This document shows positions 9,584 to 61,456 of a stretch of DNA of 62,723 nucleotides, in pieces (the stretch's first letter is position 1; each line of letters starts with the position of its first letter). The DNA comes from a virus, in IMG/VR virus record IMGVR_UViG_3300044700_000299, positions 1 through 62,723 of that record. One strand, written 5' to 3'. The translations under genes were made by a program, and so were the position numbers. The notes under the pieces were generated by a model. That model was not told the origin of the DNA. It was given only the letters and a program-made list of their open reading frames with translations, and did not search any database.

Positions 9584-11305
9584 ATGAAAAGAGAAAATAG
9601 TTTAATATCAAAATTAGTTGATAAAGTATTAAATGAAACAATCGAAGAAAGAGCCAATTCTTTAGTTTCAAGATTAAAACATAAAGAAATGAAAGAAACT
9701 CATACAGGTTCAAAAATCAAAGGTATCATCAATAGTATGAAAGGTGAGGTTAACGAAATGGGGGGTATGGATGACGGTCACCCAAAATTGGGACGTAAAA
9801 AATTACCGAAAGATATGTCTGACGACGAGATTGATGATATCCTTAATCAACTAAGAATGGGTGATGATGATGATTTTGAAGATGGTGTTGATGAAATGCC
9901 ACCATTTGAAAGAGGTCGTCGTGATTATGAGGATGATGATTTTGATAATGAACTTGAGGAAAATTACGATAGTGAAGAATTACAAAATCATTTTGATGAT
10001 GAGGAATATGATGAGTTTAATTTTGAACCAATGGATGATGTTAGACCTAATTTAAGGGATTTAGAAGGTGGTACAACACACGGACGTGAGTTTATGAAAG
10101 ACTTTGAAGATAAGCGTGATTTTATTAAAAAATTAAGACGTGGTTTCAGAGGAGAAGAAAATGAAGAACAACTATACGAAATCGAAATGGGACCTCAAGG
10201 TAAAGTTTGTGAACAATGTGGAGTTGGTGAGATGTCTGAAGGTGTTTGTAATGAGTGTGGTAGTTCATCAGGTATGATGGATGAATCTGAAGATATGGAA
10301 GTTACTGAAACAAACATTGAAGGGTGTAAAACTGTTAAAGAAGTTGTTAAATCACAAAACGGTGAAGTGACAGAATTGGACCAACAATTAATGGAAAGAT
10401 ATAATTGTGGTTCATTAAAAGAATCGTTAATCCGTAGAGGTTTAATGACAGAATCTTTAAAAGGTAATCAGAAAAAAATTGACAAAAACAAAAATAATAA
10501 AATTGATAGTGAAGATTTTGCAATCCTAAGAAAAGGTAAAAAAACTGAGACTAAAGAAGGTGATAAACCTGACTTTTTAGATTTAGATAAAGACGGTGAT
10601 AAAAAAGAACCGATGAAAAAAGCATCTAAAGATAAAAAAGAAACTGTTAGAGTTACTGAAAGTGAGTTAATTGCATTGATTGAAGAAATGGTTAATGAGG
10701 AGTTTGAAACTATTGGTACTAAACCAAGAGGTTTGTCTGAATATGAGAGAGCTCATAAAAAATCAGGAAGTGAAAACAAAGAATATTTCAAATCACTAAA
10801 GAAAAAAATGGATGATTATTTAAAAGATGGTTCAAACAATGATTATGAAGAAAACCCAAAACATTTTCCAAAAGGTAATGGGCAATTGGCGAAGATGAAG
10901 GCTAAAAAATATGATATGTCTGATGATGGTAAAGAATTTATTGATGATTATATGAGTCCTGGTATGGAGAATTTAGATTATGATGAAGTTCACCCAAATG
11001 AAGATTGGATGAAAAAAAATATTGAAGGTTCTTCTGAGACAGGTAATAATCCAAAATGGGCAAATGCTGAAGAAACTGAATTAGGTGAAAAACTAAATAA
11101 AAAACGTAAAGCTAATAAGTTTGCTAAGGCTAAAAGACAAGCGTATAATAAAGCACCTCAACCTGTTGTTAGTGATAAAACAGGTGATGACAATGGAACA
11201 GGTATACATATTAAAGTCGAATCTACGGATAAACAAACTAAAGTTTTAAATGAAGAATTCAATAAGATTAAAAACTTAATGAATTACAATAGAAAAACAC
11301 AATAA
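9584..11305 (+). CDS. large acidic prohead-core-like protein with three tag motifs
   Basis: 573 residues, very polar. In order: an N-terminal helix with LNETIEE; a long D/E-rich region (about 55-150); a zinc-ribbon-like pair CEQCG and CNECG (about 210-226); two EF-hand-like loops (DKNKNNKIDSED and LDLDKDGD, about 300-335); an internal tag VRVTESELIALIEEMV (about 356); and a C-terminal KVLNEEFNKIKNLM. The middle and end motifs match the N-terminal tags of other proteins in this window, including [LI]-x-E sites. The best guess is a prohead core or scaffold protein processed at several sites by a gp21-type protease. Composition and motifs are seen; function is inferred. Confidence 0.7.
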   Translation: MKRENSLISKLVDKVLNETIEERANSLVSRLKHKEMKETHTGSKIKGIINSMKGEVNEMGGMDDGHPKLGRKKLPKDMSDDEIDDILNQLRMGDDDDFEDGVDEMPPFERGRRDYEDDDFDNELEENYDSEELQNHFDDEEYDEFNFEPMDDVRPNLRDLEGGTTHGREFMKDFEDKRDFIKKLRRGFRGEENEEQLYEIEMGPQGKVCEQCGVGEMSEGVCNECGSSSGMMDESEDMEVTETNIEGCKTVKEVVKSQNGEVTELDQQLMERYNCGSLKESLIRRGLMTESLKGNQKKIDKNKNNKIDSEDFAILRKGKKTETKEGDKPDFLDLDKDGDKKEPMKKASKDKKETVRVTESELIALIEEMVNEEFETIGTKPRGLSEYERAHKKSGSENKEYFKSLKKKMDDYLKDGSNNDYEENPKHFPKGNGQLAKMKAKKYDMSDDGKEFIDDYMSPGMENLDYDEVHPNEDWMKKNIEGSSETGNNPKWANAEETELGEKLNKKRKANKFAKAKRQAYNKAPQPVVSDKTGDDNGTGIHIKVESTDKQTKVLNEEFNKIKNLMNYNRKTQ

Positions 11306-12851: not shown

Positions 12852-13084
12852 TTGAGAAACTAGCATTGATTAGTGATGCGGTTGACTCATTATTTCCTGA
12901 AGGTAGAAGTGCGGTTGTTTTCCAATTGAAGGATGAAGAGTTTAAAAAAGTTCAAAGTAATTTTAGAGAAATTGATATGAGTCACAAACAATTTAAAATT
13001 GATATCTCTGGAGTTGAGTTTATTTTTTTAGAGGAAACGTCGTTGACTGACGAAATAGATACTGTTTCGGATAACCAAGATTAA
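12818..13084 (+). CDS. small protein of unknown function
   Basis: 88 residues with a helical N-terminus followed by beta strands. It overlaps the previous gene by 34 nt, and its last 65 nt overlap the antisense 3' end of the next gene on the other strand. No family recognised. Confidence 0.6.
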   Translation: MEENYKSVDGIIEKLALISDAVDSLFPEGRSAVVFQLKDEEFKKVQSNFREIDMSHKQFKIDISGVEFIFLEETSLTDEIDTVSDNQD

Positions 13085-13658
13085 CTAGCATATCGTAAAG
13101 ATATTTTCGTTGTGGGGTGGATGAATCTTTAATAAAGATACAGTCCATCCTTTTTTCATTTATATACTTTTGAGATAAGTTATCAATAAAACGTGACGAA
13201 TCAATTTCATTTTTAAATGTAAAAAGATTAGTTGTTTCATTTAGTTGGACTATGACTTTATTGTTTAATTTTGAAACCATTTTTAAACCATCACCACTTA
13301 AATACTTTTTAATTAATTCCTCACAATTAATTTTCTTTTTAGTTGAATAATCAACAAACTCTTCATTTATATTATATTTGTTGATTTGTAACATACAGTA
13401 ATCATTATCTTCAACATCAACTTTGTTTCGTCTACCAAACTCATCTGTTATATAAATTGTTTGATTATTTGATTTAGGACCTAATAAACCTAATTCGAAT
13501 ACGCTATGATGTCCGTTTTCGTGTTGTTTATCGAAAATCACCTCATCACTAATAGATAATAGATTATTATAATACTTTTGTGCTCTATCAAATGTTTTAA
13601 ATTTCTTGATAATTTTCTTTTTTACTCTATTTTTGAATAACACTATAATATAGTCCAT
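13020..13658 (-). CDS. hypothetical protein on the opposite strand
   Basis: 212 residues, N-terminus MDYIIVLFKNRVKKKIIKKF, mixed alpha/beta, no recognised domain. It converges with the gene ending at 13084, overlapping tail to tail by 65 nt. It is divergent from DnaJ, with only 33 nt between start codons; that gap contains an AT-rich ATTTATTATG-like element on this strand that could be a late-type promoter. Confidence 0.7.
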   Translation of the reverse strand: MDYIIVLFKNRVKKKIIKKFKTFDRAQKYYNNLLSISDEVIFDKQHENGHHSVFELGLLGPKSNNQTIYITDEFGRRNKVDVEDNDYCMLQINKYNINEEFVDYSTKKKINCEELIKKYLSGDGLKMVSKLNNKVIVQLNETTNLFTFKNEIDSSRFIDNLSQKYINEKRMDCIFIKDSSTPQRKYLYDMLVNLGYPKQYLFRQSTTFPLKK

Positions 13659-13691
13659 ACATAATAAATAATTTTATAATTAAATAAGTAA

Positions 13692-14621
13692 ATGAGTCAA
13701 GATAATTATTACAACGTACTTGGTGTTCAAGAAAATGCCGACCAAGATACAATTAAGAAGGCTTATAGGTCTTTAGCTAAAAAACACCATCCTGATAAAG
13801 GGGGTAATGATGAGATGTTTAAGAAAGTATCTCAAGCCTACGATGTTTTAGGGGATGACAATAAACGAAGACAATATGATAACCAAAAACAAAATCCATT
13901 TCATAATGCCGGTGGTAATGGTGGTGGTGGATTTGACCCATTTGGTGATATGTTCCATATGTTTAATGGTGGTCGACAAAAACAGAGAACAGTTCCTGAT
14001 AAGATAATTGATATCTTAATTTCACCTGTTGAATCGTATAATTCAGTTGATAAACATATTAAATATCAAAGAAAACATATGTGTGTTGACTGTAACGGTA
14101 ATGGTGGGGATAGACAACATTGTGGGGTTTGTAACGGTTCGGGTATAATAACACAACGAATAGGGACCGGTATGTTTATTCAAATGGTTCAGTCACATTG
14201 TAATGCGTGTAATGGTGTTGGTTATACATATACCAGAGTTTGTGGTGGTTGTAAAGGTTCTTGTACTACAGAAAAAACGGATAGTATTAGTATTAAATTA
14301 CCTCACGGTATTGATGACGGACAATTTCTAAAAGCTCAAGGTAGAGGTGATTTTAGTAATGGTGTTTATGGTAATCTAATTATTAGAGTTAAAGTTAAAA
14401 ATGATAGTAATTTTGAAAAATTTGGGGATGATTTAATCTATAATAAGTTTTTGAATTTAGATGATTTAAAAACTGATTCGTTTATTATTCCACATCCATC
14501 AGGTGATTTATCTATAAAAATACCACCTGTATTTGACACATCAGTACCTCTAAGAGTTAAATCCAAAGGTTATAATAATGGGGAGTTGTATATAAAATTG
14601 TTTGTAAAGTTCACACGTTAA
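13692..14621 (+). CDS. dnaJ: DnaJ-type co-chaperone
   Basis: Type I J-protein of 309 residues that stimulates Hsp70 ATPase. J domain 1-65 with HPD at 33-35; a Gly/Phe-rich linker at about 70-95 ([11 protein letters not shown]); four C-x-x-C-x-G-x-G zinc motifs at about 131-200 ([31 protein letters not shown]); then the peptide-binding C-terminal domain. Somewhat shorter than bacterial DnaJ. No DnaK or GrpE is present, so it must use the host Hsp70, perhaps for virion assembly or replication-complex remodelling. Its last codons lie in a perfect palindrome shared with the convergent gene. Confidence 0.92.
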
Positions 14622-14634
14622 TTAACGTGTGAAC
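14609..14634. repeat. perfect 26-bp palindrome across two convergent stop codons
   Basis: Two 13-nt arms, GTTCACACGTTAA and its reverse complement, meet with no spacer. Both flanking genes therefore end in the codons TTC ACA CGT TAA (Phe-Thr-Arg-stop). There is no T run, so this is not a standard terminator; it may act as a bidirectional stop or RNA-stability hairpin. Confidence 0.85.
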
Positions 14635-14846
14635 AATGAAGCAACATCTTTAACGATTTGAACTAAACCGTAAAATCCAAGAAATAATATTGTGACACCA
14701 ATGGCAACTAATTTTAGGTTACCTGATGACAAAGCTTTAGATTTACAAGTTTTACATTCCTTTTCCTTTTTAATAGGTTCTGTGTAGTTCGGGAGTTCAA
14801 CTAATGTTGAAAAAATTTCTTGTTGATTTGTTTCTTGATTTTCCAT
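14622..14846 (-). CDS. small membrane protein with CxxC
   Basis: 74 residues: a polar N-terminal half with CKTC near 33-36 and one transmembrane helix at about 47-65. Convergent with dnaJ and ending in the same palindrome. Unknown function. Confidence 0.65.
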   Translation of the reverse strand: MENQETNQQEIFSTLVELPNYTEPIKKEKECKTCKSKALSSGNLKLVAIGVTILFLGFYGLVQIVKDVASLFTR

Positions 14847-14919
14847 ATTTTTAGGTATTATTGTATAATGATAATTAGTTATCGTCTAATTTTAAATAAA
14901 TAAATAAAAAAAATAAAGT

Positions 14920-15762
14920 ATGTTATCTTATATTGGGGGTAAAAGTAAAATTGGTAAATGGATAGTTCCATTCATACCTAAAGACATTGAAACATATGTT
15001 GAACCGTTTAGTGGTATGTATTGGGTTTTCTTCAATATGGATTTGAAAGAGTATCCCAACCTAAAGAAAGTTGTTTACAACGACTTTAATCCGTTAAATT
15101 ATAATCTATTCAAGTGTGTTCAGAACCCTCAAGAGTTGTTGAAAGCAATCAATTCAATTGAGTGTCAACAATTCGGTGTAGAGGTTACACCACCACACTT
15201 AAAAGAACAGTTTATCAGCTTTCAGGCTGAAATTTTTAAGGAAGGTTTCAGCGTAGAACCTGGCGATTATGTGGTAGCCGCTAAGTATGTGTATATTTTG
15301 ACTCAGGTGTTCTCAGGTTCAAAACCTGAAACCTCATCATATATTGACTTGAAAGGTAAGTATAAATCAAAGTATTTGACGTTTAGAGATAAGTTAAGTA
15401 AACCTGATTGGGTGAACCACTTCTTAAAGATAACTCACGTTGAGAATATGGACTTTGCTGATGTAATAACTAAGTATGATGGGGAGAAAACTTATTTCTA
15501 TACTGACCCTCCATATTGGAAGACTGAGAACTACTATTCAAATCACGACTTTGATAGAAACGACCATGAGAGATTGGCAAATACACTAAAAGGTATTCAA
15601 GGTAAGTTCTCATTATCTTACTATGATTTTGAAATATTATCTGAGTGGTTTCCAAAAAATGAGTATATTTGGGAGAGTAAACTATTCGCCAAAGCGGCTG
15701 CAGCTAAAAAAGGTAAAACACAAACTATGGGTGAAGAGTTATTAATAATGAACTATTTATAA
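14920..15762 (+). CDS. D12-class (Dam-like) N6-adenine DNA methyltransferase
   Basis: 280 residues. The N-terminal SAM site YIGGKSKIGKWI, then YVEPFSGMYWVF (motif I), and TDPPYW near 193-198 (catalytic motif IV DPPY) are the hallmarks of the D12/Dam family, which usually methylates adenine in short palindromes such as GATC. No restriction enzyme lies next to it, so it probably protects phage DNA or modifies it for regulation. Target specificity cannot be read from the sequence. Confidence 0.9.
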   Translation: MLSYIGGKSKIGKWIVPFIPKDIETYVEPFSGMYWVFFNMDLKEYPNLKKVVYNDFNPLNYNLFKCVQNPQELLKAINSIECQQFGVEVTPPHLKEQFISFQAEIFKEGFSVEPGDYVVAAKYVYILTQVFSGSKPETSSYIDLKGKYKSKYLTFRDKLSKPDWVNHFLKITHVENMDFADVITKYDGEKTYFYTDPPYWKTENYYSNHDFDRNDHERLANTLKGIQGKFSLSYYDFEILSEWFPKNEYIWESKLFAKAAAAKKGKTQTMGEELLIMNYL

Positions 15763-15774
15763 ATTAAAAATAAA

Positions 15775-16350
15775 ATGATAAATGTTAACAATAGATATGA
15801 CTTCTTAAAAGAAGTTAAAAATAAATTACCGGAAAATCCTATTTGTTGTGAGATAGGTGTGTATCAAGGTGGTTTTAGTGAAGTAATATATGATATATTA
15901 AAACCAAAAAAATTATATTTAATTGACCCATTTGAGAATATGGTCGACCCAATTACCAATGAAGAATTTTATCCTGAACTGAATTGGCATAGAACAGTCT
16001 ATTCTGAAGGTTGTTTGGAACATGTGAATAATCTATTAAGTGAGGGTATTAATAACAATACTGTAATCATTGATAAAAATTTATCGACAAATGCTGTAAA
16101 TAATTATGAGGATGGATTTTTCGATTTTATATATATCGACGCTTGTCATTTATATGAATCGGCTTATTGGGATATAGTTAATTATTTTCCAAAATTAAAG
16201 AGTGGTGGTATAATGTCAGGTCACGACTATATTGATATGCCGTCATTTGGGGTTAAAAGAGCGGTTAATGAGTTTTGTCATAACTATAATTATGAAATTG
16301 AGATATTAGACAATCTTATGGGTGATTGGGCTTTAACAATCAAAAGGTGA
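15775..16350 (+). CDS. class I SAM-dependent methyltransferase
   Basis: 191 residues of the Methyltransf_24 type. Motif I is CCEIGVYQGGFSE; the acidic ribose-binding loop is LYLIDPF; then DFIYIDACHLYES and a GGIMSGHDY segment near the end. This subfamily modifies small molecules or sugars and is not a DNA enzyme by motif. It is 12 nt after the Dam-like gene, so the two are probably cotranscribed. Substrate unknown. Confidence 0.8.
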   Translation: MINVNNRYDFLKEVKNKLPENPICCEIGVYQGGFSEVIYDILKPKKLYLIDPFENMVDPITNEEFYPELNWHRTVYSEGCLEHVNNLLSEGINNNTVIIDKNLSTNAVNNYEDGFFDFIYIDACHLYESAYWDIVNYFPKLKSGGIMSGHDYIDMPSFGVKRAVNEFCHNYNYEIEILDNLMGDWALTIKR

Positions 16351-16390
16351 AATAGGGATGATGAATTATTAATTATTTTTGAATTTAGCA

Positions 16391-16403
16391 ATATTTATAA
16401 ATA
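16391..16403 (+). promoter_or_regulatory. late promoter (ATATTTATAAATA)
   Basis: Best-fit late box, including the T4 core TATAAATA, 10 nt before the ATG at 16414. Confidence 0.8.
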
Positions 16404-16413
16404 AAAATAAAGT

Positions 16414-17802
16414 ATGAAAATAACATCAGTTTTAAGAAACATATTATTAGAAGATTCACGTTTTGAAAATTTATATACTAAATTTGTTGAACCTACTCCG
16501 TCGAAAGACCCGGCTAAACCAAATAAACCTAAACTTAAATTTGACACGTTAAAGCAATTTATATTTGCTGACCCTACGTCAAGGATGCCTGAGGGTGTTG
16601 ATGCTGAAGGTTTATCATTGGCAGATATTAGAACTTTAGGTAATAAGTTTAAAGTAGGTGCTTATACACAATGGTTGTTGAAAAACTTCTTTAAACCAAC
16701 TTTCCAAGGAGACCAAGCAAATGTTGACCCATCAAGTCCTGAGTACAAGGAAATGGTGAAGGAATTCAGACGTTTATTCCTTGAGGATTTGTTTAAGATG
16801 AATGATATTATTGGAAAGTTTGAACGTGTTAAACCATTAATACCGGTGGACCAACGTAATATTGATTCATATACTCCTACGACTTTAACAAACTTAATTC
16901 TTAATTTACCTGAAGAATTAAAAACGAAGATTCAAACTAAAGATGTAAAATCTCAGGCGAGAGAAGAAAGAAAGACTAACAGATTTGCCCATCCAGGTGC
17001 TACAATTATGAAAGAGGGGACTAACTATACCCTTATTAAAATTGAAGGGACTGATACACCTCAGAAAGAGGCTGCACAGTGGTATGGTGGATTCTATGAC
17101 TACATGAATGGTGAGTCACATTGGTGTACTTCACCTCCGGGGTCTAACTACTTTATGACTTACGCGTCGGCAGGTCCATTATATGTTATTATGGCTAACG
17201 ATGATAAAGGGTTGGTTGGTGCAAGAACAGGATTACCTCAAGAAAGATACCAAATCAACTTCCCTAAAAACCAATTTATGGATAGAATGGACAGTAGATT
17301 TGATGTTGTTGAGAAATTCAATGGAGACTTCGCTGAGTTCAAAGAAATCCTGAAATCTGAGTTTGCTAAAGGATTCGTTGTTCCAAATACTGATGAGGTT
17401 GAAATTACATATCCTGGAAGTTCTGCGGGTGTATTCATTGCATTATATGGATTTGATGATTTGATTAAATCATTACCAAAAACTATTAAACAGTTACACG
17501 TAATTAATACTTCAAACACACCGGTTTATTTAGAGTTAAGTGAGGCTATCGGTCAATTCACTGAATTAGATACGTTATTATTACAAAATGTTGTAAAAGA
17601 AATTCCTGAGTCAATCGGTAATCTAAGAAACTTAGATATATTGTCATTAACTGATAATAAAGAATTGAAAACAATACCAAATTCAATCCTTAATTTGGAG
17701 AATTTAGCGTTCTTAGTGTTAACAGGTAGTGGTGTTGAATTGTCAAGTGAAATGGCTGAAGAGTTTATGGTAACTGCTGACGGGGTTTATGCACGAGCTT
17801 AA
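16414..17802 (+). CDS. tagged LRR protein, putative packaged protein
   Basis: 462 residues. The N-terminus MKITSVLRNILLEDSRF carries an LLE tag like other proteins in this window. The middle domain (about 190-310) has SHWCTSPPGSNYF, GPLYVIM and YQINFPKNQFMDR, an arrangement loosely like PcfJ-type domains. The C-terminus (about 360-440) contains leucine-rich repeats of the IPESIGNLRNLDILSL type. LRRs mediate protein binding. A late promoter and a tag suggest packaging into the head and delivery to the host, which is inference. Confidence 0.75.
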   Translation: MKITSVLRNILLEDSRFENLYTKFVEPTPSKDPAKPNKPKLKFDTLKQFIFADPTSRMPEGVDAEGLSLADIRTLGNKFKVGAYTQWLLKNFFKPTFQGDQANVDPSSPEYKEMVKEFRRLFLEDLFKMNDIIGKFERVKPLIPVDQRNIDSYTPTTLTNLILNLPEELKTKIQTKDVKSQAREERKTNRFAHPGATIMKEGTNYTLIKIEGTDTPQKEAAQWYGGFYDYMNGESHWCTSPPGSNYFMTYASAGPLYVIMANDDKGLVGARTGLPQERYQINFPKNQFMDRMDSRFDVVEKFNGDFAEFKEILKSEFAKGFVVPNTDEVEITYPGSSAGVFIALYGFDDLIKSLPKTIKQLHVINTSNTPVYLELSEAIGQFTELDTLLLQNVVKEIPESIGNLRNLDILSLTDNKELKTIPNSILNLENLAFLVLTGSGVELSSEMAEEFMVTADGVYARA

Positions 17803-21765: not shown

Positions 21766-22045
21766 GTTATTAATTTTGTATACGATGGACGGTTGTCCTT
21801 TCTGTCAAATGATGAAAGAAAAGTTAATTGAATCTAACATCATTTATTATGAGCGTGACATTGACGAGTATAAAGATGAATATGATTTGTTTGTTGAAAT
21901 TACGGAAAACGATTATGTTCCAGCGTTTATGATAATTGAGGGTGATGATGAGAAACAACCAATCACGTCATTGTACGCACCTGATAGAGATTTTAATGAC
22001 TTGGATGAAGGTCTTGAAATAATTAAAAATAAAATGGTACTATAA
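21758..22045 (+). CDS. glutaredoxin-like protein
   Basis: 95 residues. Redox site CPFC at 13-16 in the context LYTMDGCPFCQMMKEKL, followed by DYVPAFMII (cis-proline region). Probably works with the adjacent thioredoxin in thiol-disulfide exchange. It closes the operon at a strong terminator. Confidence 0.85.
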   Translation: MDKLLILYTMDGCPFCQMMKEKLIESNIIYYERDIDEYKDEYDLFVEITENDYVPAFMIIEGDDEKQPITSLYAPDRDFNDLDEGLEIIKNKMVL

Positions 22046-22046
22046 A

Positions 22047-22077
22047 AAAACCCCCAATAACTTGGGGGTTTTGTTTT
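22047..22077. terminator. terminator, CCCCCAA/TTGGGGG type
   Basis: AACCCCCAA/TTGGGGGTT stem between convergent genes, with A and T runs on both sides, so it can act in both directions. Confidence 0.85.
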
Positions 22078-32218: not shown

Positions 32219-33292
32219 ATGAGTCATTATATTATAAATAAACACGAATTTAAAAGTGTTGTTAATAAAATTTACACAGAAGAACAAACAAAAATTATAA
32301 ACGAACATTGGAATCGTTTAACTGAATCTGAAAAAATATTTGCAATTGAAATTCTAAAAGTAATATATCCTGAGAAATCTAAACAAATTAATGAGGCAAC
32401 AGGTTGGAATACCTTTTTTGATTTTGTAGGTATTCTCGACCCATCAGGAGCCGTTGACTTTTTTAATGGTCTTAGTTATTGGTCTCAAGGTGATAGATTG
32501 TTTGCGATTTTATCGTGGGTATCGGTTATACCTTATTTAGGTGATATGTTAGCCAAACCTGTTATTGGTTTATTAAAAATTGGGGGTGATAGTATTAAAG
32601 CTTTTAGAGCGGCGACAGTTGCGGGGGATGCGGTTAAGATTGCTGAAACTGCGAGTAAATCAGGTGGTATTGTTGCTAAGTTTGTTGAAAAATCACCGTC
32701 TTGGGGTGCTAAATTACTTGAAATATTAGATAAAGCAGCACTTAAACACCCTTCAATTAAAAGATTAATCAAGTTAGTTCGTGAGTATATTAGTTTGTTT
32801 GTTTCAGCGGGAAAAGAAATGAAGGCTGGAAGTACTTTGGCTAAAGGTCTTGGGACTGCTGAAAAAGAAACTTTAAAACAAACGTTCAGAGGTTTTAGAG
32901 ATTTTGGGGGATTTAAAAATAAATACTTTAAATACATATTCTCCAAAGATGTTCCTATGTGGAATAAATTTGCTGCGGGTATGCCTCGAGCATTTGGTGG
33001 TAATCCGGCTGTTAGGTCATTAATGAGACGAACTAAGTGGTATTTAGGATTTCTTGATTTCTTAGGTATTGCTGATACTAAAACAACACCTGATGAATTA
33101 TTGAAGAAACACCCTGAACTTTCGAATAAAATTAATGAATATAATAAGACAACTGATGCACAACAAAATTGGAGTCAAGATTTTGGTTCAGGCGAGGGTG
33201 AGGTAACTCAACAATCTGATGGTGGTATAGATATAAAAAATATTACGGGAATTAACCCATTAGAAGTTTTTTTAAACCCTTTGTTTAAATAA
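32219..33292 (+). CDS. putative internal virion protein with hydrophobic segment
   Basis: 357 residues from the ATG at 32219, chosen because it follows the late box. N-terminal 60 residues are charged helix (tag-like MSHYIINKHEFKSVV). A hydrophobic region follows at about 65-115 (SWVSVIPYLGDMLAKPVIGL), then basic helices and a Gly/Gln-rich tail. Amphipathic and hydrophobic helices in a late protein fit an ejected or membrane-active internal protein. It is coupled to the DHH gene by TAATG. Confidence 0.65.
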   Translation: MSHYIINKHEFKSVVNKIYTEEQTKIINEHWNRLTESEKIFAIEILKVIYPEKSKQINEATGWNTFFDFVGILDPSGAVDFFNGLSYWSQGDRLFAILSWVSVIPYLGDMLAKPVIGLLKIGGDSIKAFRAATVAGDAVKIAETASKSGGIVAKFVEKSPSWGAKLLEILDKAALKHPSIKRLIKLVREYISLFVSAGKEMKAGSTLAKGLGTAEKETLKQTFRGFRDFGGFKNKYFKYIFSKDVPMWNKFAAGMPRAFGGNPAVRSLMRRTKWYLGFLDFLGIADTKTTPDELLKKHPELSNKINEYNKTTDAQQNWSQDFGSGEGEVTQQSDGGIDIKNITGINPLEVFLNPLFK

Positions 33293-34737
33293 TGAAAAAA
33301 ATAGTAAGATTAAGTGAGAATCAAATGACTGAGGTCGTTAAACGAATGTTAATTGAATCAGGAATTCGTGATATAAATAAAATTGCTGACAGATACCAAA
33401 AGGCTAAGATATATTTTCACCAAGATTTAGATGGTGTTACAACCGCGATTGCAATGAAAGAGTATTTAGCTCAATACGGAATTAAAACAGTTGATTGTGA
33501 GGTAATACAATATGGTGATAAAGAATGGTCTATTAAAAAACCTGAAGGTAGTGGTGATGTTATGCCGGTATTGGTTGACTTTGCTCACGGTAAACCAATG
33601 TTTGTTATTCATACGGACCACCACGATACTCAAGCGGGTGTTGAATCAGGGACTGCAACAAACTTTAGGTCGTCAAGGTCTAATGTTGAAACTATATCAC
33701 AATCAATATCACCGAAAGAATTATTCCCAACTGAAGATTTAACATTAATATCAACAGTTGACTCGGCGAATTTCGCACCAAATGATATAACAGTTGATGA
33801 GGTAAATAATTACATCTTCAACTTAGATAAAGAAAAATCAGTTCCAAAAAACAAAATGGCTCTTGGTTTAACAATTAATAAATTATTATTGGCGTTTAAA
33901 AACAAACCTGGATTCTTAGAAGAATTGGTTATGGAATCAACACCATCTTTACTTAATATCTTAACTAACATTAAGAGGATTATGAAAGAGAAGGGATTTG
34001 CGTCAGTTGATGTTTTACAACAAAATAGGGACAACTACGTTCAATCAATGAAGAATCATCCTAACGTTAAAGTTATGGATAATATCATCGTTCAATACGG
34101 TGGTGGTAATATGATGAAACCTGGTTCATATGATAGGTATACACCATTTAAGAATAATCCTGAAGCTGACTTTATAGTTATTGCTTGGCCGTTGGGGTTA
34201 GTTCAAGCATCTTGTAACCCATTTAAAAAAGAGAGAGCATTGAAAGGTGTTAATTTAGGTGAGGTTAAAGATGAGGTATTATCTAAATGGGAAACACAAT
34301 TAAAACAAAAAGAAATTCCATTATCTACAATCAAATGGGTGTCTGAGAACAAATTAAATACTGAGTCAGTTGGATTTACGTTTAAAGATTTTGAAGCTTT
34401 GTATGGTGAAAAATTCAGTAAGATTAACAACGGACCTGAATTACTAAACATTATTAATAATATAATGCAAAAACCATATAATAGTTTAAGTGATAAACAA
34501 AAATCTATTATGGAGAAAGTAACTGTTAGTGCTTGGGATATAATTCAGGCTAATAGTGGTGGTCACAAATGTATTACAAATATATCAGGTCTTAGTTATT
34601 TAGGTAAGAACCCACAAAAATCTTTTGGTGGGGGTGGTTACCAAAAAAGTGAAGAAGATTCACCATCGGTTAAGTTTACCAAAATGATTCAAAATGAATT
34701 TGTAAGAGTCTTACAACAAAAAATACAAGAAGGTTAA
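33292..34737 (+). CDS. tagged DHH-family phosphoesterase
   Basis: 481 residues. After an N-terminal tag (MKKIVRLSENQMTEVVKRML, LSE site) come the DHH-superfamily motifs in order: H43-x-D45-x-D47 in YFHQDLDGVT, a VDFAHG strand, T-DHH-D near 108-112, STVDSAN near 160, and SGGHKC near 422 as the DHHA1-type end motif. The superfamily includes RecJ exonuclease, NrnA oligonucleases and cyclic-dinucleotide phosphodiesterases. Size and domain order do not show which. With the tag it is a candidate enzyme delivered with the DNA. The 3' end overlaps the convergent DUF192 gene by 4 nt. Confidence 0.75.
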   Translation: MKKIVRLSENQMTEVVKRMLIESGIRDINKIADRYQKAKIYFHQDLDGVTTAIAMKEYLAQYGIKTVDCEVIQYGDKEWSIKKPEGSGDVMPVLVDFAHGKPMFVIHTDHHDTQAGVESGTATNFRSSRSNVETISQSISPKELFPTEDLTLISTVDSANFAPNDITVDEVNNYIFNLDKEKSVPKNKMALGLTINKLLLAFKNKPGFLEELVMESTPSLLNILTNIKRIMKEKGFASVDVLQQNRDNYVQSMKNHPNVKVMDNIIVQYGGGNMMKPGSYDRYTPFKNNPEADFIVIAWPLGLVQASCNPFKKERALKGVNLGEVKDEVLSKWETQLKQKEIPLSTIKWVSENKLNTESVGFTFKDFEALYGEKFSKINNGPELLNIINNIMQKPYNSLSDKQKSIMEKVTVSAWDIIQANSGGHKCITNISGLSYLGKNPQKSFGGGGYQKSEEDSPSVKFTKMIQNEFVRVLQQKIQEG

Positions 34738-47300: not shown

Positions 47301-48200
47301 ATGAAAAAAATATTGTTAGAAGAAATTAGTAGGATAAAAGTAATGATGGGTCTTAACGATGACTTATTAACTGAGGGTTCTAAATTAAAAATACTAACAG
47401 ATAAATTAGGGTTAAGTCAAGAGGCTGCCGAGTATTTGGAAAAAACTTGTGGTTCTAGTTCGGTGTGGATGTTTCATAAACTATTAGATAAACTTAATTT
47501 AATTTATAAAGTTTTTTCTGATGATAAAGAATTGGTGGATATTATTTTAGTCGCTGATGGTCTTAAAACTTGGAATGAATTTGTAGTTAAACAACTAGGT
47601 GTTACAATTCTTAGTGATATGGAAATTCGACGAGATATTCCAAAAATTATGGATTGGATTACTGTTACATTAAAAGGAAATTGGAAACCATTCGAAAATG
47701 ATACTTTCGACGAATTAGTGCAAAAAAGTAAAGAATTAACTAATTATATTGAAAAAAATCCTGTAATATTAGATTTCCGTGATAAAGAAGGTAATGGGTT
47801 CTATTGGGCGTATTTAGAGGGAAATACTTCAAAAGAAGAGTGTGATAGAATGGGACATTGTGGTAGGTCTGATAAAGGTCAATTATATTCGTTAAGAAGT
47901 TCTAAATATTATCATGGTATATTAGAAAATAAAAGTCATTTAACCGCGGCAATTGGGAATGGTCTGTTATATCAGTTAAAAGGTGTTAAGAATTCTAAAC
48001 CAAAAGAAGGATATCATAAATATATTTTACCATTGTTTTACGATAAAAGATATGGTGACTACTTAATTAAAGGAATTGGTTCGGAATATGAAACGGGTGC
48101 AGACTTTAAAATTGATGATTTATCTGATAATATGAAAACAGAGTTAAAAAATAAAAGACCTGATTTATTTGGGGGTGATGTAAATAATGAAATGAAATAA
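47301..48200 (+). CDS. tagged protein, paralogue A
   Basis: 299 residues. N-terminus MKKILLEEISRIKVMMGLND with an LLE site and a second LTE. A conserved C-terminal domain has DFRDKEGNGFYWAYL, DRMGHCGRSDKGQLYSLR, SHLTAAIGNG, YQLKGVKNSKPKEGYH and ILPLFYD: the Cys, Leu-Arg, Q-x-K-G-x-x-N order recalls PcfJ. Paralogous to the next gene, coupled by TAATG. Late promoter plus tag suggests packaging. Activity unknown. Confidence 0.7.
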   Translation: MKKILLEEISRIKVMMGLNDDLLTEGSKLKILTDKLGLSQEAAEYLEKTCGSSSVWMFHKLLDKLNLIYKVFSDDKELVDIILVADGLKTWNEFVVKQLGVTILSDMEIRRDIPKIMDWITVTLKGNWKPFENDTFDELVQKSKELTNYIEKNPVILDFRDKEGNGFYWAYLEGNTSKEECDRMGHCGRSDKGQLYSLRSSKYYHGILENKSHLTAAIGNGLLYQLKGVKNSKPKEGYHKYILPLFYDKRYGDYLIKGIGSEYETGADFKIDDLSDNMKTELKNKRPDLFGGDVNNEMK

Positions 48201-49882
48201 TGAGAAACTTATTATCTGAACAAATAAGTAAGATGCAATCAATGATGGGTATTAAAGATGACCTATTAGTTGAGGCTTCAAAATTAGAAATATTAACCGA
48301 TAAAGAAGGGTTGGATGAAGACCAAGCTAAGTTACTTGATGAGTTATGTGGTGGTTTATCGGTTTGGATGTTAGGTCGTGTTAAGAACTATTTAATGGTC
48401 GTAAGTACTAGCATTTCAAAATTTAATGATGAAAGACAAGGTGCAGGTTTAAATAAATTCATCATAGACGAAATTAATAAAAACAGTTATGTCAACAGAT
48501 GGCGTCAGGATATTATTGGAATTATGGATTGGATTCGTGTTGGTTTGGATGGTAATGTAAAACCATTTAAAAACTTACAGTTAGACGAACTAGTTAGAAA
48601 GTCTAAGGAATGGCACGATTCGTTAGGGTTGGGTAATGGTGATATCAATTATGTTGAGAAAAATGAGATTATAAAAGATTTCCGTGATGAAAATGGTAAT
48701 GGATTCTATTGGGCTGATTTAAATACTAAGGATTCAAAAGAAGAGTCGGAAAGAATGGGCCACTGTGGACGTTCAAGTTATGGTTATATATATTCATTAC
48801 GTGAGACAAAACCAATTAATAATAAATACACAATTAATAGGAGTCATTTAACTACTGCAATTGGTAATGATGGTATTATGTATCAGTTAAAAGGTCCTAA
48901 GAACTCAAAACCAAAAGAAGAATACCATAACTACATTTTACCATTGTTTTATGTGTTAGGTGGTGAAGGTGAAGAAGATGATTATTTAGTTAAAGGATTT
49001 GGAACCGAATACGCGTCACAACAGGATTTCAAATTAAGTGACTTACCTGATGATGTTATTAGAGAGTTATATCGAAATAGACCTGAATTGTTTGAAGGTA
49101 GAGCAATGATGAGAAAATTGGTTGATATGGGTATAATTGAAGCTCCTAATGTTGAATATAATATTACACTTAATATTGATGCTGATGATGTTGGTAGATA
49201 TGTTGATGGTGATTATGTTTATAGACGATATAAGAAAAAAGTTACGACACCTGCGGGACAAGAATATGATAAAACAGTTGAGGTTACAATGTTTGAAATA
49301 ATCTTAGCGGGTGACACTTATGATATATATTATAATGACTATACCGATTGGAAAGATTGTCTTACTTATCATGTGGATGATGCTCATAAACAAGAGATTA
49401 GGGAAATATTAAGAAAAGTTGCTGAACGTGGTGATGATGAATTTATTGCTGAAGATTTTGACCAAAAGGATTTAGAGGATATTATTGAAGAATATGATGA
49501 TTATGATAGTGTGAAAAGTGCGTTAGGTAATGCACAAAATAACGCTGAATCTAGTGATTATTCTGATTATTTATATAGACTATTACAAGATGCTTTAAAA
49601 GAATACGGGACAATTGAGAAAATGGATGACACAGGTGTTATCTTACACATAGACACTAAACGATATTTTGATGAAGCTAATCCTGATTATCTTGATGATT
49701 ATTTTGAACGATGTGATGATGATATTGAATGTACCTTTAAGGAACTTGTTACTGAAGATGAAATTGAAAAACCAAAGTGGAACTTTGATGATAGATGGTA
49801 TCCAAGTGTTGATAATGGATATTATAATGAAATGTTATCCGATTATCTCTACGATGTTAAACGTGATTATAAGATAGATTAA
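48200..49882 (+). CDS. tagged protein, paralogue B, with acidic extension
   Basis: 560 residues. N-terminus MRNLLSEQISKMQSMMGIKD (LSE site). The first 310 residues align with paralogue A (ERMGHCGRSSYGYIYSLRE, YQLKGPKNSKPKEEYH). The remaining 250 residues are unique: a beta domain near 330-400 and a very acidic Tyr/Asp-rich helical tail. Arose by tandem duplication plus fusion or loss of the tail. Function unknown. Confidence 0.7.
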   Translation: MRNLLSEQISKMQSMMGIKDDLLVEASKLEILTDKEGLDEDQAKLLDELCGGLSVWMLGRVKNYLMVVSTSISKFNDERQGAGLNKFIIDEINKNSYVNRWRQDIIGIMDWIRVGLDGNVKPFKNLQLDELVRKSKEWHDSLGLGNGDINYVEKNEIIKDFRDENGNGFYWADLNTKDSKEESERMGHCGRSSYGYIYSLRETKPINNKYTINRSHLTTAIGNDGIMYQLKGPKNSKPKEEYHNYILPLFYVLGGEGEEDDYLVKGFGTEYASQQDFKLSDLPDDVIRELYRNRPELFEGRAMMRKLVDMGIIEAPNVEYNITLNIDADDVGRYVDGDYVYRRYKKKVTTPAGQEYDKTVEVTMFEIILAGDTYDIYYNDYTDWKDCLTYHVDDAHKQEIREILRKVAERGDDEFIAEDFDQKDLEDIIEEYDDYDSVKSALGNAQNNAESSDYSDYLYRLLQDALKEYGTIEKMDDTGVILHIDTKRYFDEANPDYLDDYFERCDDDIECTFKELVTEDEIEKPKWNFDDRWYPSVDNGYYNEMLSDYLYDVKRDYKID

Positions 49883-49885
49883 TTT

Positions 49886-49914
49886 AAACCCCCAGGTAAA
49901 ATTGGGGGTTTTTT
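49886..49914 (+). terminator. terminator, CCCCCA/TGGGGG type
   Basis: AACCCCCA stem with TTGGGGGTT and T run. Confidence 0.85.
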
Positions 49915-59163: not shown

Positions 59164-59195
59164 AAAACCCCCAACATAACATTGGGGGTTTTTTA
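59164..59195. terminator. bidirectional terminator, CCCCCAA/TTGGGGG type
   Basis: AAACCCCCAA/TTGGGGGTTT stem between convergent genes. Confidence 0.85.
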
Positions 59196-60215: not shown

Positions 60216-60246
60216 TTGTGGGTTAACAAAAGATAGTTATATTTGT
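60216..60246 (+). promoter_or_regulatory. early promoter of the structured RNA
   Basis: GTTG at 60216-60219, 19-nt spacer, TATATTTG at 60239-60246. The RNA should start within a few nt of its 5' hairpin at 60251. Confidence 0.75.
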
Positions 60247-60264
60247 AGTGTGTGAGTGTCACAC

Positions 60265-60304
60265 AGGATGTCAGAACTCCTAACTTACAATCTGACCACT
60301 AAGT
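60265..60304 (+). repeat. 40-nt perfect direct repeat, copy 1
   Basis: Begins CAGGATGTCAGAACTCC, ends CTGACCACTAAG. Identical to 60357-60396. Contains AGGA and TCCT, and CTTA and TAAG, pairs that could form pseudoknots with the loop. Confidence 0.95.
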
Positions 60305-60356
60305 ATCAGGTGAGGTGATACGGGTTGATTACCCCAACTTAATAAGTGAAACAATC

Positions 60357-60396
60357 AGGATGTCAGAACTCCTAACTTACAATCTGACCACTAAGA
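60357..60396 (+). repeat. 40-nt perfect direct repeat, copy 2
   Basis: Identical to copy 1, offset 92 nt. Confidence 0.95.
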
Positions 60397-60447
60397 ATCG
60401 GGTGAGGCGGTTCGGGTTAAACACCTCAATCCAAAGGATGAAATTTA

Positions 60448-60476
60448 AACCCCCAAGTAACATTGGGGGTTTTTTC
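60448..60476 (+). terminator. terminator of the structured RNA
   Basis: AACCCCCAA stem with TTGGGGG and six Ts. Confidence 0.87.
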
Positions 60477-60497: not shown

Positions 60498-60983
60498 ATG
60501 AAAATATTAATTACTGAAAATAAACTTGATAAATTAATTGAGAAATACGGGATTGTCAAAACAATTAAAAACATAGGTGGATACGATAATTTTGATAAAC
60601 TCGCACCTGATTATTTTTATTCTCGTGATGAAAATAATGTGATGAAGTTTAACAAAGAACGTGCGATTGATTTCATTAATGAATGTGTTGAGGTTAATAA
60701 CAAAAGAGAAGATGAATCTAGTATATATCTTTATGATTATTATAGTGATATCTTATATCAAGAGTGGGATGGTGAAGGTGATGATGATAATGAATTTTAC
60801 GCTTATGAGTCTAGAATTGAATCGGTTAGTACTGATATTGCTTACGGTTCAATTTGGCAATTTGATGATGAAGGTCAAATGTTTGACGACGCATACGACA
60901 ATTTTCAAGTTCCCCTGAATAGATTACCGGAAAAGATTCTTAGGGATGTTTTTCATATGTTATATGAAAGTTTTAAAGTATGA
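60498..60983 (+). CDS. tagged protein, ILITEN type, downstream of the RNA
   Basis: 161 residues from the ATG at 60498; longer readings would run through the structured RNA. Tag MKILITENKLDKLIEKYGIV (ITE site). A helical, charged N-terminal part is followed by an acidic Tyr/Asp-rich stretch like the protein at 58610. Coupled to the next gene by 4 nt. Function unknown. Confidence 0.7.
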   Translation: MKILITENKLDKLIEKYGIVKTIKNIGGYDNFDKLAPDYFYSRDENNVMKFNKERAIDFINECVEVNNKREDESSIYLYDYYSDILYQEWDGEGDDDNEFYAYESRIESVSTDIAYGSIWQFDDEGQMFDDAYDNFQVPLNRLPEKILRDVFHMLYESFKV

Positions 60984-61456
60984 AGTTATTAAAATTATTA
61001 TCGACATTAATTACTGAAGGTAAGTTATTGGATAGATTCGTCATCAATGGTCTTGTAGTTGATATAACAAGTACTCACGAATCTGATGTTGCGGTAATGG
61101 ATAACACAACATTCGGTAGAGTTTCCAAAGAAGAAATATTAGAATCAATGAGAGATATCATTGAGGTTATTGTAACACAAGGATTGGTAGTGTTAGATAC
61201 TTGTGAAAGAAGATGTGGGTTATTAGTTAGTGATTATTCAATGGGGTTTGATTACCAACTTTGGGTAACAATGAAAACTAATAATTTAGAATTGAAAATT
61301 AACACATCAATTAAACACCCAAAAGAGTTATTCAACAATAAATTCAAAACAAGACGTGTTATCGTAACTAGAGACGGTGAAACCGTTATCAGAGAATCAT
61401 TAGAACATTATCGTTCAGTTAAAATCGGAAAAAAAATCGTTTATTTTATAGACTAA
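60980..61456 (+). CDS. tagged alpha/beta protein
   Basis: 158 residues. N-terminus MKLLKLLSTLITEGKLLDRF carries LITE, then a globular alpha/beta domain with basic C-terminus (KTRRVIVTRDGETVIRES). Overlaps the preceding tagged gene by 4 nt. Unknown. Confidence 0.65.
   Translation: MKLLKLLSTLITEGKLLDRFVINGLVVDITSTHESDVAVMDNTTFGRVSKEEILESMRDIIEVIVTQGLVVLDTCERRCGLLVSDYSMGFDYQLWVTMKTNNLELKINTSIKHPKELFNNKFKTRRVIVTRDGETVIRESLEHYRSVKIGKKIVYFID

Follow-up and report, generated by a model that had tools for sequence, protein, structure and literature searches.

Type III loci such as ToxI, CptI and TenpI combine a promoter, a tandem RNA of H-type pseudoknots, an intrinsic terminator and a following gene, and the pseudoknot of CptI has a loop 1 of one nucleotide and a long A-rich loop (PMC5086642). 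Phages also carry abiF RNA (RCd22, RF03085), an RNA of about 100 nt with two motif copies that is co-transcribed upstream of a gene and binds its partner protein (PMC12373285), as well as Racrs, small RNAs that act on protein by mimicry of CRISPR repeats (PMC10651486). Here, we analyzed a viral DNA of 62,723 nucleotides, one strand of IMGVR_UViG_3300044700_000299 from position 1 to 62,723 (the window). Near its end lies a locus with a type III-like order of promoter, units with a probable pseudoknot, intrinsic terminator and downstream gene. The comparison with its relatives makes it very probable that the locus encodes a conserved structured RNA of a class that is not in Rfam.

Tandem units and flanking signals in the window

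The following features were assigned, all on the plus strand:

60216–60245 (+), Bacteroidota-type promoter-like site seen in the sequence, TTG at 60216–60218 and TATATTTG at 60238–60245
60249–60265 (+), 5' hairpin GTGTGTG...CACACA from the MFE fold, in a leader that varies between clades
60265–60356 (+), unit 1, from pair counts and the match of covariance model R1 (60265–60356, by construction)
60265–60268/60278–60281 (+), unit 1, stem S1 of probable pseudoknot PK1, crossing S2 at 60270–60274/60292–60296
60297–60300/60309–60312 (+), unit 1, probable loop helix
60303–60308/60316–60321 (+), unit 1, main hairpin
60322–60325/60331–60334 and 60337–60340/60344–60347 (+), unit 1, hairpins P3 and P4
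60357–60448 (+), unit 2, from pair counts and the R1 match (60357–60453, by construction)
60357–60360/60370–60373 (+), unit 2, stem S1 of probable PK1, crossing S2 at 60362–60366/60384–60388
60389–60392/60401–60404 (+), unit 2, probable loop helix
60395–60400/60408–60413 (+), unit 2, main hairpin
60414–60417/60423–60426 and 60429–60432/60436–60439 (+), unit 2, hairpins P3 and P4
60447–60475 (+), intrinsic terminator (CCCCCAAgtaacaTTGGGGG and T6), from sequence and near-identical terminators elsewhere in the genome
60487–60493 (+), TATTTAT, late-promoter-like motif of the next gene, from the motif count upstream of genes
60498–60983 (+), c16-family gene (ORF from the ATG at 60498; MKILITEN...) with a capsid-targeting-like start
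60980–61456 (+), c2 gene, 158 aa, from RNA adjacency, alignment, models and fold searches

The first-pass annotation of this DNA had described a gap-free pairing of two 92-nt units, and our realignment agrees: 71/92 positions are identical, including all of the first 39, and most of the remaining differences are compensatory. Re-reading the sequence reproduced the changes reported there, namely GTATCA/TGATAC to GAATCG/CGGTTC, where two pairs are fully compensated and a third becomes a T-G wobble while the GGTGAGG loop stays as it is, ACTT/AAGT to ATCC/GGAT with three compensations, and GGG/CCC to GGG/CCT. Its promoter is present as a promoter-like site that is conserved in most loci, and its terminator was found at 60447–60475. 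The hairpins it proposed also stand, but as an account of the whole structure they fall short, since the two hairpins are only a part of it. The probable pseudoknots, a second RNA family, placements in 3' UTRs and a linked gene did not figure in that annotation.

The predicted folding energy of the window RNA is ordinary (z −1.2; 21/200 shuffles equally good), so the case for structure is built on comparison. No further copies of the unit were found within the window. Identity to unit 1 is 97% for the lone unit of L028 and 96% for L007, against 77% for unit 2, whose nearest relatives are L011 (87%) and L006 (85%). The tandem therefore looks like two joined lineages with a common 5' part and not like a recent local duplication.

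A TAnnTTTG motif stands 26–44 nt before the first unit, at a clade-specific distance, in all listed loci of this family (family 1) except L006, L011 and L025/L027, where the RNA begins 2–4 nt past a stop codon. In the window, as in the homologous loci whose sequence was displayed, an intrinsic terminator separates the RNA from the downstream gene. Near-copies of the window terminator (90–94%) occur at 49881–49914, 59165–59194 and 22045–22071 (−), and the genome seems to reuse it as a stock terminator. The gene that follows family 1 is always co-directional, and its identity varies. Of the 77 window genes, 18 have TATTTAT in the 40 nt upstream, compared with 2% expected, and many of these genes have a capsid-targeting-like start, from which we infer that the motif is the late promoter of this phage.

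Homologues, a second family and the conserved fold

Pattern scans, with matches read by eye, revealed the element in 28 other phage contigs of IMG/VR; many further matches were set aside as chance after reading. The carriers are uncultured bacterial viruses, and the collection searched contains no cultured phage closely related to them. R1 recovers the element in 29/29 records with one locus each, as expected for its own building sequences, and an IMG/VR scan independent of the GUCAG/CUGAC letters added no members. At the sensitivity used, there was no match among INPHARED phages and PLSDB plasmids (blastn) or in the GTDB genomes of 84,980 bacterial and archaeal species (pattern scans). One window protein (33292–34737) has 36–43% identity to proteins of the uncultured huge phages LR745206 (635 kb) and LR756502 (642 kb); in these two records and in LR756508 and LR756501, all four with other shared proteins, neither the RNA (under stricter filters) nor c2 was found.

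A covariance model and an Rfam comparison had been suggested by the first-pass annotation, which saw no known class in the RNA. With R1 built and found in the 29 records, Rfam 15 returned no family at or above its gathering cut-off for the whole window and only chance matches at E ≤ 10, in line with that view. The RNA was not found in the open-access literature searched, although it could stand unnamed in a large virus-wide motif catalogue. That annotation also held that homologues with stems altered without compensation would speak against a structured RNA, and in the homologues found we see the opposite.

Pair counts were taken over 17 distinct full units, in which 95.6% of cells pair, compared with 32–47% in slid controls. 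Two-sided changes occur at every one of the six main-hairpin pairs and at three of the four in P4, the 3' hairpin. Changes on both sides amount to 39 cells versus 14.5 in shuffles (0/500), and the covariation score is 0.336 versus 0.207 when shuffled (0/500). A home-made null that takes the tree into account is stricter: only the top pair passes (E = 0.045; second pair 0.35), so that the support is modest for single pairs and convincing for the whole.

The start of each unit probably folds as an H-type pseudoknot in which AGGA/UCCU crosses GUCAG/CUGAC, with a loop 1 of one nucleotide and an A-rich loop 3. Its outer pair changes from A-U to G-C in L033b and L072, whereas the letters of stem 2 are almost constant in family 1, so that covariation there gives this stem no separate support. 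The loop GGUG of the main hairpin probably pairs back with the linker CRYY; this pairing is standard in 24/24 distinct units, and its changes are one-sided wobbles only. The 3' part consists of the small hairpins P3 and P4 followed by UGAAA. A further pairing of the P3 loop with the segment after GAAA (PK3) is possible; 41/2000 shuffles were as good, and in L033b/L072 it takes the form of a 6-bp AGATAG/CTATCT helix. We rejected a kissing of loop 1 (CUUAC) with GGUGAG, which suits the window and is missing from most homologues. Units are in tandem in 8/29 records and single in 21/29. In L013, L014, L024 and L030, a 57-nt unit made of pseudoknot and hairpin precedes the full unit (60 nt in L033), which makes the unit modular.

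A weak R1 match in G010 (E 0.007) led to a second RNA family in six of these phages (L106–L111, in G010, G013, G012, G008, G014 and G020). Its layout is GGGUUGAACCGAGAUUACCCUUACAACUCGG..., a hairpin, AGGU..CCUCAA, the P4 hairpin, UGAAA and a terminator; the order of helices is that of family 1, and the letters differ. Among the six sequences 97.8% of cells pair and seven pairs vary on both sides, including one pair of the crossing pseudoknot stem that swaps from A-U to U-A. A model built from family 2 alone (R2) has family 1 as its best match in 10 records (E 4e-4 to 0.06), with E-values that are optimistic near 15 bits, as judged by a chance match of 14.1 bits (E 0.003) across the end of the tRNA-Arg gene in T4. 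In most of the 10 records R2 covers the whole unit, and the window clade is aligned out of register. A second T4 match, of 8.6 bits in the e.6 region, was likewise put down to chance. Two family 2 copies (G008, G014) have a promoter of their own; in G010, G013 and G020 the RNA comes after the gene for the phage sigma factor, and in G012 after a different gene. The sigma-factor gene of the window is not followed by a family 2 RNA, and searches with R1 and R2 gave no convincing third family.

The linked gene c2 and capsid-targeting-like starts

The gene c2 is present in 22/29 records, where it invariably follows the RNA, shares its strand and has no copy elsewhere; all 29 records were picked by the presence of the RNA, and these counts cover RNA carriers only. 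The distance is about 40 nt, with one gene in between in the window clade. In the window this is the c16-family gene; in L006/L011 this family is found directly ahead of the RNA. Every one of the eight tandem records carries c2. Seven of the 29 have the RNA without c2, G027 retains a 36-residue c2 remnant next to an intact RNA, and no c2 gene lies beside family 2 in its six records. In most relatives the RNA and c2 are flanked by a cluster of c5, DnaJ, methylase and c4; the window has this cluster at 13020–17802 without them, about 45 kb from its RNA and c2. In L007, L009, L013 and L058, a homing-endonuclease-like gene (c17) and its small partner (c18) are inserted between the DNA methylase gene and the RNA.

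Alignment of c2 shows three invariant residues, L3, I11 and E13, which we take to be a prohead-protease-like LxE after a short helix, as in T4; the product may be packed in the virus particle. There was no match of c2 in Pfam and PHROGs and no clear relative in the PDB by sequence. Structure models show a weak resemblance to RelE/HigB toxins (Z 3.4–4.9; 3.5–3.7 in another search) and to a phage site-specific RNA endonuclease (TM 0.47/0.52), which a second model ranks 33rd, with unrelated folds mixed among the matches. With Z under 5, the models offer a weak hint of a RelE/RegB-like fold that serves as a lead only.

N-terminal helices ending in (L/I)xE are also seen in the window genes at 9584, 16414, 23232, 45474, 47301, 48200, 58610, 60498, 60980 and others. 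The proteins are otherwise unrelated, and many have TATTTAT just upstream. Such short helices resemble the capsid-targeting sequences of T4, and the proteins possibly form a large packaged set. Two adjacent paralogues with such starts (47301–49882) have motifs of the types ..GNGFYWA.L.. and ..ERMGHCGRS.. in common.

Possible roles and comparison with known systems

We tentatively favor a dedicated phage small-RNA gene whose product acts in trans by binding protein and, in most genomes, has c2 as its likeliest partner, much like a type III antitoxin (probability roughly 0.4). A host-type promoter would drive a transcript of about 220 nt with two structured units, ended by the intrinsic terminator. 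Each unit would fold into the H-type pseudoknot, the hairpin with its loop-linker pairing, P3 and P4, and the final UGAAA. The RNA would engage a protein and neither pair as antisense nor serve as a riboswitch for the next gene, and the c2 protein would be restrained by it as toxins are by type III RNA antitoxins. The fold is kept while the letters of its stems vary, which marks the fold as the active part; together with the three family 2 copies that are unable to act on the following gene (see below), this favors a trans-acting, protein-binding RNA. Because seven records lack c2 and family 2 stands without it, c2 would not be the sole partner. It is the most economical one in most genomes, with a host defence protein as its main rival. 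Two features that set c2 apart from known type III toxins, a late-type promoter of its own and a start like a capsid-targeting sequence, count against the antitoxin reading. A version that takes up this start, in which c2 would be a capsid-addressed (LxE leader), injected RelE/RegB-like ribonuclease, the RNA the antitoxin of the producer cell and orphan RNAs a protection against the c2 of relatives, appears quite improbable.

Possible, though on balance unlikely, is a counter-defence RNA unconnected with c2, a decoy that blocks an RNA-binding defence protein of the host. The host-type promoter, the one or two copies, the two divergent paralogues and the occurrence in genomes without c2 would suit a decoy, and the short loop 1 and long A-rich loop 3 recall CptI (PMC5086642). 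There are also precedents in the phage pseudo-ToxI that blocks ToxN and in the Racrs (PMC10651486). However, we found no likeness to antitoxin-RNA or CRISPR-related families in Rfam, the pattern scans of 84,980 bacterial and archaeal species brought no match and hence no host original into view, and the strict linkage to c2 would be left unexplained.

Two cis-acting roles fit less well. That the pseudoknots shield transcripts from exonucleases, as a 3'-end stability element, would agree with their location just ahead of the terminator and with the 3'-UTR copies in family 1 (L006, L011, L025/L027) and family 2 (G010, G013, G020), but this role is improbable, since the majority of copies have a separate promoter and lack any coding sequence in need of protection. 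We are very doubtful of a tandem riboswitch or attenuator, in which ligand-sensing units would govern the terminator before the next gene. The structured units abut the terminator, and family 1 alone, with its co-directional next gene, would be compatible with this by position. In three of the six family 2 records (G008, G010, G014), however, the next gene is convergent, so the RNA cannot control a downstream gene there. Several copies also lie in 3' UTRs directly past a stop codon, the following genes differ, a late-type promoter of its own precedes the next gene, and a nearly identical terminator serves elsewhere in the genome. Finally, a small peptide starting at ATGTCAG, or an N-terminal extension of c16, is hardly credible: in the window and L008 an open frame does connect unit 2 with c16, but the frame stops after 7–28 codons in most other units, lacks the ATG in L030b, L053 and L055 and is shifted where the length differs (L013b and the L053 group), and the variation tracks pairing and not codons.

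Among the known systems, T4 rnaC and rnaD (RNAs C and D) are small stable phage RNAs annotated without function; they sit in a tRNA cluster, and neither R1 nor R2 matches their sites. For abiF RNA, RF03085 gave no match in the window region (E ≤ 10) or in six homologous loci (E ≤ 0.1). Abi_2 (PF07751) was not detected above its cut-off in 15 records; weak matches near the RNA in G014 and G016 (E about 0.006–0.008), both in the same protein, which itself has a capsid-targeting-like start, were taken as chance. Compared to the Racrs, which mimic CRISPR repeats (PMC10651486), the unit is longer and probably pseudoknotted. With regard to type III loci, pairing supports a pseudoknot in both families, and tandem units are seen in 8/29 records. 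The units differ from type III RNAs in being 57 or 92 nt long with further hairpins and in one or two copies. The downstream gene differs as well: c2 is not recognisably ToxN/CptN-like, with neither a Pfam nor a PHROGs match and a weak RelE-like fold signal, and the RNA often occurs without it (seven records). The RNA adds to the structured phage RNAs an unlisted class that comprises two paralogous families and is clear in its anatomy, and its linkage to c2 makes the idea of a protein partner directly testable. If it binds c2 or a host defence protein, RNA-based inhibition of proteins, with type III antitoxins, Racrs and AbiF RNA as precedents, would gain a new fold.
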